Made by a program: the position numbers and the translations under genes
Notes under the pieces: generated by a model
What the model was told of the DNA's origin: nothing
Database searches by the model: none
What the model saw: the letters and a program-made list of their open reading frames with translations, nothing else
Assembly (NCBI GenBank): GCA_004369045.1
Contig: ML213503.1
Span: 3,079,697 to 3,143,696, forward strand
From: Heliocybe sulcata
Lineage: Eukaryota > Basidiomycota > Agaricomycetes > Gloeophyllales > Gloeophyllaceae
DNA length: 64,000 bases
Direction: 5' to 3'
Shown: positions 1-30,954 of the stretch, one piece after another
Position numbering within the stretch: position 1 is the stretch's first letter
Layout of the letters: every line of letters starts with the position of its first letter

Positions 1-1355
1 CAGCAGACAATTAATCAAACCGCTCCCTTGGTCTCCCACCATTGCCATCCTTCTTCATCTCGGCGCGGTAGCACTTCGGCGATGAAAGCTTCATGTTCTT
101 GTGAATTCTCCCCCCTGGCGACCGCATGCTTGTTTAGCATGCGAGCGCGACGGGTCAGCGTTCTACGCTTGGGATACAAACTTTGCGGACCCAATCAAGA
201 AGCATCTCCCTGCCTCCTTAACTCCCGCTGCTCGTCCCGTGGTGGCAGATGATGCGGGACTTGATATGATTGGAGTGCGTCTCCCTTGCCTAACTGGACC
301 GGAGGATGCTCGAAACTTTGCGGAGCAAGGTTGATTGGCTGCTCCCGCCGGTACAGTGCCTTCTCTTCTTCTGTTACGTTCGAAGCGTCCTGTCAGAGGT
401 ATCCAAAGCACCAATACCCATGGCGCCTATTCGAGGCGGCCTGATCTGACATTGGTTCAACCCTGCTGGGGGTGGTCTAGTTTTCTCCGATGATGTAGTG
501 GCTTGCGTTGGCGTGAGTATATCGACGTTTCCTGATCCTCTCTATTGGCGCATGCGGCCATGGCTATTCATATGCAGTTATTTTGGGTACGCCCGCCACC
601 ATTGGTACTGCCCGCAGAGCATTCACATCCATACTCTCCGACCAACACGGATGGACGAGTAGAACGTCCTGGAAAGCAGCGATGTTGCCTGAGTGGGGTA
701 TGCCCGTGGCCGCCCCACCGAGGTGCGCGACGCGACGCGATCGAACCAGTCAGGGCATCGTCTCCACGAAGGCGGTCGGGCAGGCACAAGAAGCGCAGAG
801 ATACCCTTCGGCAGATCTTTCAAATTCATCTGGATTATAGAAAACGGGGTAAAGAGGACACCATATACATTCATCTAGAGCTGTCCTCGGCGATAGTGCC
901 AGGAAAGTGGATTGCAGATGGTAGTACATTGGAAGGATATAAAGGAAAAATAACTACTAACTAATGGCAACACTAACACCGATAACTACTAGGTGAAGAA
1001 GATACTCGAACAATCCAGCGCTGTACACCAATCCTGAACGTGAAGCCACAGATCGCAATGGTAAGGTAGCGGATGGGGCAATAGAAGAGGGGATGGGGTA
1101 GGATGGATAGGGTGATTTGAAAGAATGTGCGGGTGCCTAAACACTTGGACAATCTCTGAGGAGATCGCCACGAAACAGGACCAGAATCCGGGATAAGGGT
1201 GCCTCCATGAGCAAGAGGAGAGGCCTTTGTAAGATGTGAGTCCGATCAGCATTCATAGCAGTTGTCTATAAACGCCGAACCTTATGGTTAGAGGCATTGA
1301 CCATGAGGCACAAGGCACACTCTCACCTGCTGAAGCCTGGCTCGTCGACAACCAA
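1..1355. other. Gene-free stretch before the repeat-peptide gene
   Basis: No convincing gene was found on either strand. The open frames are short, overlap one another and show no domain, signal peptide or splice logic. The part nearest 1356 is presumably the 3' flank of the minus-strand peptide-precursor gene. No tRNA or recognisable transposon end was seen. Confidence 0.5.
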
Positions 1356-1685
1356 TTACCAATCCGTACCGGGGGCGGGCTCGCGCTTCCAGTCCGTCCC
1401 GCGCCTCCAGTCGGTACCAGGCGCAGGCTCCCGACGCCAGTCGGTGCCCCGCTTCCAGTCCGTCCCCCGCTTCCAGTCGGTACCAGGCTCAGGCTCGCGC
1501 TTCCAGTCGGTGCCGGGCTCGGGCTCCCGACGCCAGTCGGTGCCGCGCTTCCAGTCGGTCCCCCGCTTCCAGTCAGTGCCAGGCTCGGGCTCACGTCTCC
1601 AGTCGGTGCCAGGTTCTGGCTCGCGTTTCCAGTCAGTGCCACGCTTCCAGTCGGTGCCTCGCTTCCAGTCGGTACCCCGCTCCTC
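1356..1685 (-). repeat. Coding minisatellite of GTDW units
   Basis: The units are 18 nt (KR-GTDW) or 30 nt ([10 protein letters not shown]). They are ordered in a higher pattern of two short then two long units, which gives blocks of about 96 nt. Copies 2-5 and 6-9 follow the pattern fully and copies 10-13 partly. EPAP replaces EPEP only in the last block. Open frames on the opposite strand across this repeat are by-products of its periodicity. Confidence 0.85.
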
Positions 1686-1893
1686 CTGCAAGAGTATACA
1701 GGTAAGAAATGATGACCGGACAGCACAAGAGAAGCACGTACAATCACAGCAGATGCATCAGCCTCTGGCGTCTGTATTTTTACGTCAGAACGGCGTGCAG
1801 ATTATGGTCAGCGGCAGGACGTACGGGTAGGCCGTTGGCCAGGACGGCAAAGAGAAGGAAAAGTAGGGTGAGGTAGGTCTTTGAGAGGAACAT
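1356..1893 (-). CDS. Kex2-processed repeat-peptide precursor (14 x GTDW)
   Basis: The predicted secreted precursor has 142 residues in three exons: 1825-1893, 1742-1771 and 1356-1685. Both introns (53 and 56 nt) are GTACGT...CAG and lie between codons. Exon 1 encodes a textbook signal peptide ([21 protein letters not shown]). A small exon adds a short acidic pro-segment ([10 protein letters not shown]). Exon 3 encodes 14 copies of GTDW separated by KR or RR, about half with an extra EPEP or EPAP, and stops directly after the last GTDW. In fungi Kex2 cuts after KR/RR, Kex1 trims the basic residues, and Ste13-type dipeptidases remove X-Ala/X-Pro pairs. Many identical tetrapeptides are therefore the expected product. 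No oxidase or DUF3328/UstY-like gene of the cyclic-peptide (ustiloxin-type) pathways is adjacent, so the peptide may stay linear. Signalling or RiPP function is inference. The first copy is preceded by ER rather than KR. Confidence 0.8.
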
Positions 1894-20978: not shown

Positions 20979-23720
20979 TCACGACCAGGAAGTGGGCCCG
21001 AACCCATTGACCGGATCCGGCATCAGGAGCGGCATCCCCATCGCATCGGCCGTGTTCTGCCAAACGGTGTTGCCCCACCATGGAAAGTTGATCCCGCCCT
21101 TCGGCAGCGCCAGCGCGAAGAAGATGACAAGCGTGCCGACGGCGACACCCGCGTCCAAGGCAGCGGACAAGATGTAGTTGTACCGCATCCACCAGCGGAA
21201 GCGGTAGCGGCGGATCACGTACTGGAAGACGAACCCTGTCAGCGCCCAGGCGGAGTAGTTGATGCCGCTCGCGGGCGGGAGCGCGGTGACGCCGGCGAAG
21301 AAGACGGGCATGTTCACGTAGCGCCAGAGCGAGTGCGGGTACCGGCGCGCGAGGTAGTAGAAGGGGATGGGGGCGATCGCGCCGATGAGGAAGAAGAAGA
21401 CGAGCGGGTAGTAGAGCGCGTTGGTGGAGAAGAACCGCTGCGGCCCGACGCCGCCCCAGATGAGGGAGGCGGTCGCGAACGTGTTGGACGACGGGCAGGT
21501 GAAGCCGTGCACCTGGCCCTCCGTGCAGATGTCCGGGATATTCTCAAACATCCAGGCCTGGACGAGCACGACGACGAAGCAGCTGATGACCGTCGCCAGC
21601 GTCTGCGCCACAAACATGATCCGCGGGGGCACCTTCATGTAGTGGCCGAGCTTCAGATCGCCCGAGAACGTCGTGGCCTGCGACACCGTGATGTACCCGT
21701 ACGTCTTGAACAGCATCATCGCGAGCGGCCGCCCAGGGAGCATGTAGCCGACGATGATCTCGACGAGTGTGTTGATCGGGATCTGCTGGTTCGTGATCGC
21801 CTGGATCATCGCGGCGGGGAGGACGAAGACGCCGGCGACGAGCAGCGAGATGATGTACGCCCAGGTCGGGAAGTGCGTCGGGTTTGTCTCGATCGCGATG
21901 ACGCCGAGGACGAAGGAGACGAGGCCGAGCGCGGCGTACCAGTATGCGGGGACCTCGCTGTAGGCGAGCATGAGCCGTGAATGCACGTCGCGCTCGTCGC
22001 GAATCGTGCGGCGGAACTGGCGCATGATGTCGCGGCGGTACCACACTGCAGAGCGTCATCAGTTTCGGGACACGCATGAACCGTGTAAAATAAATCTCAC
22101 AGAAAGTGTGCACGAAGATCGACGTGAAAATGGCGAACGACGGGCCGTACGAGACTGCGAAGGTCGCAGTGATGAACATGGGCGAGTAGGCCTTGTACTT
22201 CGCAAGGTCGAACTGGCCGTCGGTCACAATGGCGGACACGTTGTACTGCATGCCGAAGCGGTCAAAGGCGCCAGAGGACGACATGGGCAGGAAAGCGGAG
22301 AAGAAGACATTCTTGTCTATATATCACCAATGCGGTCAGCCATGCGAGCGGATAGGGAAAGAAGAAAAGGCAACTGACAGTAAATGATGGGCGTGAGGAT
22401 CCAGAAGAAAAATATGAAAGAAACGAGAGTGTTGGCTTCTGCCCACCACTGCCCGACGAGCGTCAGCATGCGATTCAGCATGCGGATGAAAGGAAGAACT
22501 CACGGGGGAAACCAAGGGACTCCCGACATACGCGATCATGCTCCAGTCGAACGTAAACAGACCCATGCCCAACCCCGTGAGCGTCCCAAACAGCTGGTTA
22601 ACCACCACATTGTTCGGCGCAATCCAGCACGCCCAGTTGAAGACGCTCAGGCCCGTCCAGATGTACCCAGGGAACCAGTACCACATGAAGCTGCAGCAGA
22701 ACGCGACGAGGAAGAACTTCTCCCTGCTCCAATGCCTGCGCTCCTTCTTGCCGTAGTTCTTGTGGAGCGTGTTGAACAGCGCGGCGTTGACGAGCGCGCC
22801 GGGCCAGATCATCGAGCTCGGCCAGACGACGAACTGCCTGATCAGGCCGGCGAACGCGTATCCGATGACCTGCGAGGAGATGCACAGGAGGAACTGGTAG
22901 CCGAGCCCCCAGTTCTGGTTGTAGAAGACGCGCTGCGTGAGGATCGTGTCCGTCGCGTACGCGCCCATCTGCGTCACGTTGGCCATGACGGTGATGACCG
23001 TGTGCTCCTTGACGTTGAACGGCCCCGGGTTGAGCGACATGGAGTAGCCGCGGATCGTGATGCGCTTCTGGGGGAGGATGTATTCGAGGAACTTGCCAGC
23101 GGGGAGGGTGACGAGCTGGATGACGAGGGAGGTGATGAAGACAGACGGGTCTGGGAGAGAGTTAGGGTATAGTCAAGTTGGAGCAATGCGTACACGTACA
23201 TCGTAAGCTGAAGAACTGGTTGAGACCGGGAACGAGGATAGAAACGACGATGCCCAGGAACCACATGCGGAATGTGTTGACGGGCATTAATGGGTCGTCC
23301 GTGCTCGCCACAGCGGCGCGCACCTCAGGGTACGGCGACTCACTGATAGCTCATAAGTTCTGTGATACACACCGGAAGTGGGATGACAGGCACTTACTCG
23401 TTGTATTCGATGTCATGCTTGAAGCTAGGCGTACCAGTCGTGCTTCGATCGCTATCATCTTGGTACTCCGTGTCGACCTCGGTTGTACCAGTGAACCCCT
23501 CAGATATCGACACCGTCCGAAACTTCTTCTCCGGGCGATTGATGCTGCTCGAGTCGGACGGGCTGCTGGGCACAACCGTGCTCAGGTCATAGTTGGGGTC
23601 GTTAAAGTGTTCCATGAGAATATCGTCGACATCTTCTGGGACATCGGGGGCGTTCCTGCGGAGGCGGAATGAGGGAAGACTGGCGAGATAGCCAGAGGCA
23701 CCGGTGGTCCTGGCTTCCAT
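20979..23720 (-). CDS. OPT-family oligopeptide transporter
   Basis: Six exons (23398-23720, 23200-23342, 22504-23150, 22379-22448, 22101-22316, 20979-22045) give 821 residues, typical of the family. It is a proton-coupled importer of small peptides, probably in the plasma membrane. The N-terminal 125 residues are hydrophilic and Ser/Asp-rich. The OPT core starts with DESPYPEVRAAVASTDDP and has the signature NPGPFNVKEHTVITVMAN. Many hydrophobic spans follow (FLLCISSQVIGYAFAGLI, FFLVAFCCSFMWYWFPGYIW and others), with KLGHYMKVPPRIMF near the end. Each junction is GT-AG, and the last exon is an uninterrupted frame of 355 codons. Substrates (peptide, glutathione or siderophore-like) cannot be told. 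Long open frames on the other strand are shadows. Confidence 0.93.
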
Positions 23721-29816: not shown

Positions 29817-30954
29817 TCATACCAGATGCAACCAGAGATCACCTCCGAGGTCCACGCCCTTGAGCACGCTCGCCCACTCATTGGACGTGAACTGGGCACA
29901 GCGAGCCTCCAAATCCTGAGGTTCCGAGGTCTTACCGCTGCTTGTCTCTCCCGGAGGAGGAGAAGAGTTTATGGGCTCGTACAAGCCTTGATTAACGAGA
30001 GCATCTTCTTGCGATCGTCTGATAGCGGCCATGGCATACTCGCGATTCCTGCTTGGCTTGACCGACAGGAGAGCACCCGCTTTCCGTCCATCATCGGACT
30101 GCATATGTGAACTGTCGGCTGCTACGGATGACGGGAGTGTTGTTTCAAGGTAGGCAGCAGACCGCTCGGAGCCGGGAGGGGATGGAAATACAGCAAGGGA
30201 GTCGGAAACAACATTTAGTGCAGGGTTATGCTGGCCACCCGCGTTGTTGACCTGAGGCGCGACGGAGTTGCCTTCACTGCGAGATGAAGTGACCTGCTCC
30301 ATGTTGGGTAACAGATCGTCGGGCCGAAATTGGCTCAGAGATCTGAAGCTGCTAGGTGACGCGTCCCAAAGGCGCATAAGGTAGCTCCCCAGCCTGACCT
30401 GCTCCTGCGCACGCGTAACCCCTTGTGTCACAGATGGCATCACGGGTCTACTCGCAGCGGAGTTCAGGGTCAAATGTGAGGACATCATAGCCAGGACGGC
30501 CGTCCTCATACGTACGACTAAATTAACACTTGCCACGAGCGAGACCGATAGGCTCGACGGGTCAGAGGCGTTGGCGAAGTGCATGGCAGGAATATTGGTC
30601 ATAGGCGCTCGGGGGCCGTCATAGTCTTCTCTGAAATAGATATCGAACATGTTCGTCTTGGGTAGTGGGGAGTAAGGGTCACTGTAGCTTGGTCGGCCAG
30701 GGTCGTTCCAGCCTGCGCAGGTCACGGCTTCCCGCTCTACGAGCGAGTGCTCTTCAATAAAAATGTGCTTGCATAGCACATCTTTGCGTGGATAAATTGT
30801 CCATTTGCCGTCGTCGTATGATGGGCGCGGGTAGAACACTATGGAACGTGATCAGCCGGGACGCTGTATTAATAGTACCTGGACTCGCACTAGGCAGTAT
30901 ATTCAGAGACGAAGCATCGAGCATTTTTGAGGGGATTAGGCCTAGACTTCGCAT
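29817..30954 (-). CDS. Hypothetical protein
   Basis: A 340-codon open frame (29817-30839) begins inside an exon and can be joined to a first exon by a 40-nt GTACTA...CATAG intron. That gives a start at MRSLGLIPSK (30954) or MLDASSLNIL (30924). The middle is folded-looking (DDGKWTIYPRKDVLCKHIFI, NMFDIYFREDYDGP). The C-terminal half is Ser/Pro-rich and disordered. A GTACGT...GAGTAG stretch around 30450-30517 (66 nt, in frame) may be a further intron. No domain is recognised. The short first intron and the choice of start are weak points. Another frame upstream (QLISQDTLTLKG) may be a missed exon. Confidence 0.5.

Follow-up and report, generated by a model that had tools for sequence, protein, structure and literature searches.

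A window of 64,000 bp from the Heliocybe sulcata genome (the window being the whole stretch of DNA that was analyzed) contains a gene with 14 identical copies of the tetrapeptide GTDW. The gene product is probably a secreted KEX2-processed repeat protein (KEP) which yields linear GTDW, with a likely extracellular role. A diverged paralogue with the same exon plan was found on another contig.

Structure of the precursor gene and its paralogue

The GTDW precursor gene is located on the minus strand and has three exons and two introns (Table 1). The splice model was inferred from the splice consensus, the reading frame and the paralogue. The original prediction had described 14 GTDW cores, two small phase-0 introns and a last core followed by the stop. 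These proved exact to the base and the strand was added. It had also claimed a signal peptide. The N-terminus is signal-like, with a mean Kyte-Doolittle value of 2.96 over a 12-residue window (a measure of hydropathy only), and the precursor is probably secreted. TAA directly follows the last core. Seven of the 14 cores are directly preceded by KR or RR alone, four by KR/RR with EPEP and two by KR/RR with EPAP. The first core (1/14) is preceded by EER with no dibasic pair. A KR/RR site, with or without a spacer, is therefore found ahead of 13 of the 14 cores, in agreement with the separators described originally.

Table 1. Positions of the GTDW precursor gene and of two further features in the window.
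Feature	Position	Strand	Description
GTDW precursor gene	1356..1893	-	ATG at 1893, stop codon at 1356-1358; predicted product of 142 aa
Exon 1	1825..1893	-	Start codon; residues 1-23 form the signal-like N-terminus; hydropathy computed
Intron 1	1772..1824	-	53 nt, GTACGT...ACAG, phase 0; inferred from splice consensus and frame
Exon 2	1742..1771	-	Short pro-region, 10 residues
Intron 2	1686..1741	-	56 nt, GTACGT...GCAG, phase 0
Exon 3	1356..1685	-	EER, then 14 GTDW cores with KR/RR between; EPEP or EPAP before six
Opposite ORF	1240..1830	+	196 aa, antisense to the precursor across the GC-rich repeat
OPT oligopeptide transporter gene	20982..23172	-	19.2 kb from the GTDW precursor

The precursor was searched against its own genome (31.6 Mb, 51 contigs). 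Four matches were obtained, two to itself and two at one locus on contig C11. This paralogue (C11:379030-378432, minus strand) is predicted to encode 162 aa. An exon of 66 nt, an intron of 54 nt, an exon of 60 nt and an intron of 56 nt are followed by the repeats. Both introns are phase 0. The first is equivalent in position to intron 1 of the GTDW precursor and the second has the same length as intron 2. The 15 cores all end in DW and comprise ASDW (6), GSDW (3), and GGPDW (6). Eight of the 15 directly follow a dibasic site, six follow EP, EPEP or EAEP, and the first follows a single Arg. The stop codon is directly after the last core. One odd EEE fragment was present between dibasic sites. 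GTDW and ASDW are isomeric and have the same computed mass. The computed [M+H]+ is 478.1932 for both, 464.1776 for GSDW and 531.2198 for GGPDW, and the y3 ion is 421.1718 for GTDW compared to 407.1561 for ASDW. The paralogue and the recognition of the EP dipeptides as STE13 sites go beyond the original prediction.

Searching the genome with the paralogue gave five matches, all within the two precursor loci. A triple W-KR pattern, which is blind to W-RR runs and other core endings, had six matches in the whole 31.6 Mb genome, again all in the two precursor loci, compared to 0 in the reversed control. A short D-W pattern matched too often to be informative (657 times forward and 755 times in reverse, compared to 642 and 569 in the control). 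Pfam was run on 10 of the 44 ORFs listed near the paralogue and both matched ORFs were FMN oxidoreductases.

Predicted maturation, modification and transport of the peptide

The genome has candidate genes for the Kex2, carboxypeptidase and STE13-type enzymes. A kexin homologue on contig C3 has S8 and P domains in neighboring ORFs and its best PDB match was kexin (E 1.7e-29). The genome search for the P domain gave one match, although intron-split copies could escape it. The sole DPPIV_N locus found was on contig C17 with an S9 domain alongside, and the closest PDB chains were FAP and DPP4. Peptidase_S10 (serine carboxypeptidase) had 37 matches in the genome and these are Kex1 candidates. A cluster of S10 matches at C19:341974-383671 apparently comprises several adjacent genes.

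In the proposed maturation the signal peptide would be removed and a Kex2-type protease would cleave after each KR or RR. The basic pair would then be trimmed by a Kex1-type carboxypeptidase. EP-EP or EP-AP would be removed by an STE13-type dipeptidyl aminopeptidase, so that spaced units would reach the same product. The mature N-terminus is predicted to be Gly, as seven cores directly follow a dibasic site, and the C-terminus to be Trp, as the last core abuts the stop codon. Each precursor would release as many as fourteen copies of GTDW, a linear tetrapeptide. The paralogue would yield ASDW, GSDW, and GGPDW. GTDW would most likely act extracellularly, either in signaling or in interactions with other organisms.

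The absence of an adjacent UstY-like gene had been used to argue for a linear peptide, and a genome-wide search for DUF3328 genes had been proposed. Eighteen matches to the UstYa profile (PF11807, DUF3328) were found in the genome, and several of them were paired or grouped. None of the 18 was on C1, the 3.4 Mb contig of the GTDW precursor, which extends the original statement to the whole contig. The UstYa match nearest to the paralogue was the single one on C11, approximately 621 kb away. A lenient KEP scan was carried out on unspliced ORFs of at least 40 aa from 20 sources, including the immediate surroundings (a few kb) of each UstYa gene. The only KEPs found were the GTDW precursor and the C11 paralogue, while the reversed sequence gave two hits. 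No KEP-like repeat was found near UstYa in 14 stretches, which total 132,003 bases and include every one of the 18 matches. UstYa pairs or groups were located at C2:322072-332161, C22:28839-34453, C6:1030241-1038254, C10:843709-847654, C10:1016167-1018096, and C5:554471-556468, with no recognizable KEP repeat in the stretches scanned. In the Umemura survey a DUF3328 gene no more than 15 genes away was recorded for 103 of the 1680 KEPs from Basidiomycota (PMC7329392). No such gene was detected within that distance of the GTDW KEP.

With no UstYa match on the contig and no KEP repeat at the UstYa loci a linear peptide is favored, and linear GTDW is the best reading and a likely one. A dikaritin with a linked modifying enzyme is unlikely and was rejected for the lack of a UstYa match on the contig. 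It is unlikely that GTDW is instead a RiPP which an unlinked enzyme, of UstYa type or otherwise, cyclizes or oxidizes at Trp or closes head-to-tail. The 18 UstYa matches, some of them paired or grouped, are in keeping with such an enzyme and Trp, Asp and Thr may in principle be cross-linked, but the precursor contig has no UstYa match, the lone one on C11 is distant from the paralogue, and the core has no Tyr. The low proportion of Basidiomycota KEPs with a DUF3328 gene in the survey also speaks against it (PMC7329392).

The surroundings of the precursor were examined by running Pfam on 30 of the 123 non-nested ORFs of at least 70 aa between 20 kb left of the window and position 30000. Matches were obtained in 11 of the 30 (one WD40 match was just under the cut-off) and the other 19 had no match. 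The neighbors matched kinesin, RINT1/TIP1, WD40, a Prp19-like protein, and an OPT transporter. An MCM protein was located to the left of the window, approximately 1-3.6 kb from its start. No modifying enzyme was recognized among the 30 ORFs.

OPT loci were hand-counted from 42 matches, giving 14 in the genome. With 14 loci approximately 0.017 OPT genes would be expected this close to the precursor by chance, a proximity which was noticed post hoc. Qsp1 of Cryptococcus is, like GTDW as predicted here, a secreted fungal peptide ending in Trp, and its precursor is not known to be repetitive. In contrast to the maturation proposed for GTDW, it is matured outside the cell by Pqp1, and it acts once imported via Opt1 (PMC7537855). 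GTDW could similarly be a quorum-type peptide which is taken up by OPT to act intracellularly. Peptides of four to seven residues are consumed by yeast Opt2, but wine yeast Opt1 gave no growth on peptides in the same source (PMC10686055). The OPT linkage was spotted after the fact, other genes including the Prp19-like one intervene, and none of the 42 OPT matches in the genome was on C11, the contig of the paralogue. Import is unlikely, and the linkage was kept only as a rival to the extracellular reading of GTDW.

STE3 had 14 matches at approximately five places in the genome. Several STE3-type receptor matches were located at C11:798177-836776, possibly a mating-type region. The STE2-type receptor (PF02116) had no match in the genome, and no control genome matched in the same search either. 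The STE3 matches and the lack of an STE2 match suggest a basidiomycete host. Against GTDW as a receptor signal are the lack of an STE2 match and the shortness of the core, as four residues offer a receptor little to recognize.

Comparison with known repeat proteins

By its predicted sequence the GTDW precursor is a KEP with alpha-factor-style STE13 spacers, EPEP and EPAP. KEPs are defined by at least three near-identical repeats split by KR, RR or KK, and 14 GTDW repeats were found here. The XP or XA dipeptides which follow the Kex2 site in STE13-type KEPs were found before six of the 14 cores, and six of the 15 in the paralogue. Both host enzymes have candidates, Kex2 on C3 and an STE13-type dipeptidyl peptidase on C17 (the latter assigned by domains). 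Pfam had one match to the precursor, a trypanosome repeat protein at 19.4 bits (12.9 for the paralogue) with a cut-off of 100. A PDB search with the precursor gave 0 matches.

The original prediction had compared the layout to fungal Kex2-processed repeat proteins and to alpha-factor-like or dikaritin precursors. The first two comparisons stood and the last did not. Dikaritins of the ustiloxin type share a signal peptide (here signal-like) and identical short cores separated by Kex2 sites, and the ustiloxin core is also four residues. Dikaritins usually have UstYa-type enzymes encoded nearby and Tyr in the core, whereas the GTDW locus has no UstYa gene in its vicinity and its core lacks Tyr. 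Ascomycete alpha-factor-type precursors likewise combine repeated cores with dibasic sites and with XA/XP dipeptides which STE13 removes, and alpha-factor acts through Ste2. Their pheromone core is 9-24 residues (PMC6339444) compared to four here.

The layout itself is already published. STE13-signature KEPs were described in Basidiomycota in 2019, and KEP repeat motifs on record range from 3 to 352 residues (PMC6339444). A survey of 7878 KEPs gave an average of 5.30 per Basidiomycota strain (PMC7329392). Agaricomycete KEPs whose cores end in Trp and which carry STE13 motifs were described in 2022, with processing in Pichia, and the peptides SGVAADW, MSGVAADW, SGTGEASAADW, and GPPAPSW were detected (PMC9769878). 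The claim that the peptide is new held for GTDW, as no paper on it as a fungal peptide was found by title in the open-licence PMC literature (the supplementary tables of the KEP surveys being outside this scope). It did not hold for the layout (PMC6339444; PMC9769878). The core is unusually short for the class, and neither it nor the paralogue was found in print within that scope. The analysis adds the exact peptide, the paralogue and the equal mass of GTDW and ASDW. The literature search for AADW, ASDW, GSDW and GPDW carries little weight, as the top results dealt with other subjects judging by their titles, and the KEP paper already known did not appear among them.

The closest systems are Pleurotus ostreatus KEP 1091723 and P. 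eryngii KEP 1439342, which also have dibasic sites, XA/XP STE13 motifs and a DW-ended core (PMC9769878). Their cores MSGVAADW and SGVAADW were detected as linear peptides in fruiting bodies, and at 7-8 residues are longer than the four here, as judged from the published description (PMC9769878). The repeat core of Lentinula edodes KEP 2599, SGTGEASAADW, also ends in DW and occurs sevenfold, with the peptide found in fruiting bodies. Unlike GTDW it is 11 residues, and STE13 motifs are noted for the Pleurotus KEPs and not for 2599 in that source (PMC9769878). The peptides detected by mass spectrometry in Lentinula and Pleurotus have the -AADW end in common (PMC9769878). Coprinopsis cinerea KEP 490115 shares the C-terminal Trp, and its STE13 motif was removed in Pichia, but its cores QYKAPSW and QMRPPSW are longer and end in SW (PMC9769878). 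Six KEP knockouts in Coprinopsis had no visible phenotype and synthetic peptides had no antibacterial activity (PMC9769878).

KEPs with structural roles do exist, and the Rep1 peptides of Ustilago form amyloid-like fibrils (PMC9769878). It is very unlikely that the GTDW repeats work in this way, as an intact or part-cut structural or surface-active protein with the tetrapeptides as by-products. The units are identical and four residues long, 13 of the 14 core junctions carry a dibasic pair and the spacers are of the STE13 type, all of which fits full release, and cores this short are unlikely to form fibrils. Release of GTDW as a free peptide is preferred.

Selection on the repeat and significance

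The 14 GTDW cores use GGC, GGT or GGG, ACC, ACG or ACT, GAC or GAT, and TGG, so that every variant is synonymous. Thirteen codons deviate, of five extra codon types. Counting each extra codon type once, the probability of five random codon changes all being synonymous is approximately 4e-4. When the repeat was aligned to itself at the 96-nt period the mismatches at codon positions 1, 2 and 3 were 9, 13, and 34 (binomial P 2.5e-5). The shifts of 66 nt (31, 31, and 41) and 162 nt (19, 19, and 30) matched more poorly and had a weaker third-position excess. Codons of the paralogue cores also vary synonymously only, given how the cores were grouped. Both TCN and AGY codons are used for its Ser, which indicates that selection acts on the residue. 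The third-position test showed no excess in the paralogue (70, 62, and 71 mismatches at a 21-nt shift), where identity was 0.41 and the copies do not align.

Other frames across the repeat are also open, and an open frame alone is therefore no proof of a gene. The wobble pattern favors the GTDW frame over the opposite ORF. With this pattern and the paralogue carrying the case, the predicted GTDW precursor is taken to be a real, selected gene. That the locus is a GC-rich minisatellite, open in several frames by chance, is extremely improbable despite its tandem periods of 96, 66, 48, 30, and 18 nt and long ORFs in other frames such as the opposite one, since the changes are wobble-biased, the N-terminus is signal-like and the paralogue shares the exon plan.

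The related cores of the paralogue suggest that -DW is presumably a conserved, recognized end, in line with the -AADW of Pleurotus and Lentinula. As a tentative and rather unlikely extension, GTDW, ASDW, GSDW, and GGPDW may be minimal secreted signals which share only -DW, are made from two diverged precursors, and are perhaps imported by OPT instead of acting on an alpha-factor receptor. The size of GTDW fits the peptides taken up by the yeast OPT transporter, which makes this a concrete hypothesis. With 14 copies of one tetrapeptide and ends fixed by the gene, GTDW is cheap to synthesize and test. Basidiomycetes carry alpha-pheromone-like precursors even though their mating pheromones are described only as prenylated a-type (a-type in PMC9769878).
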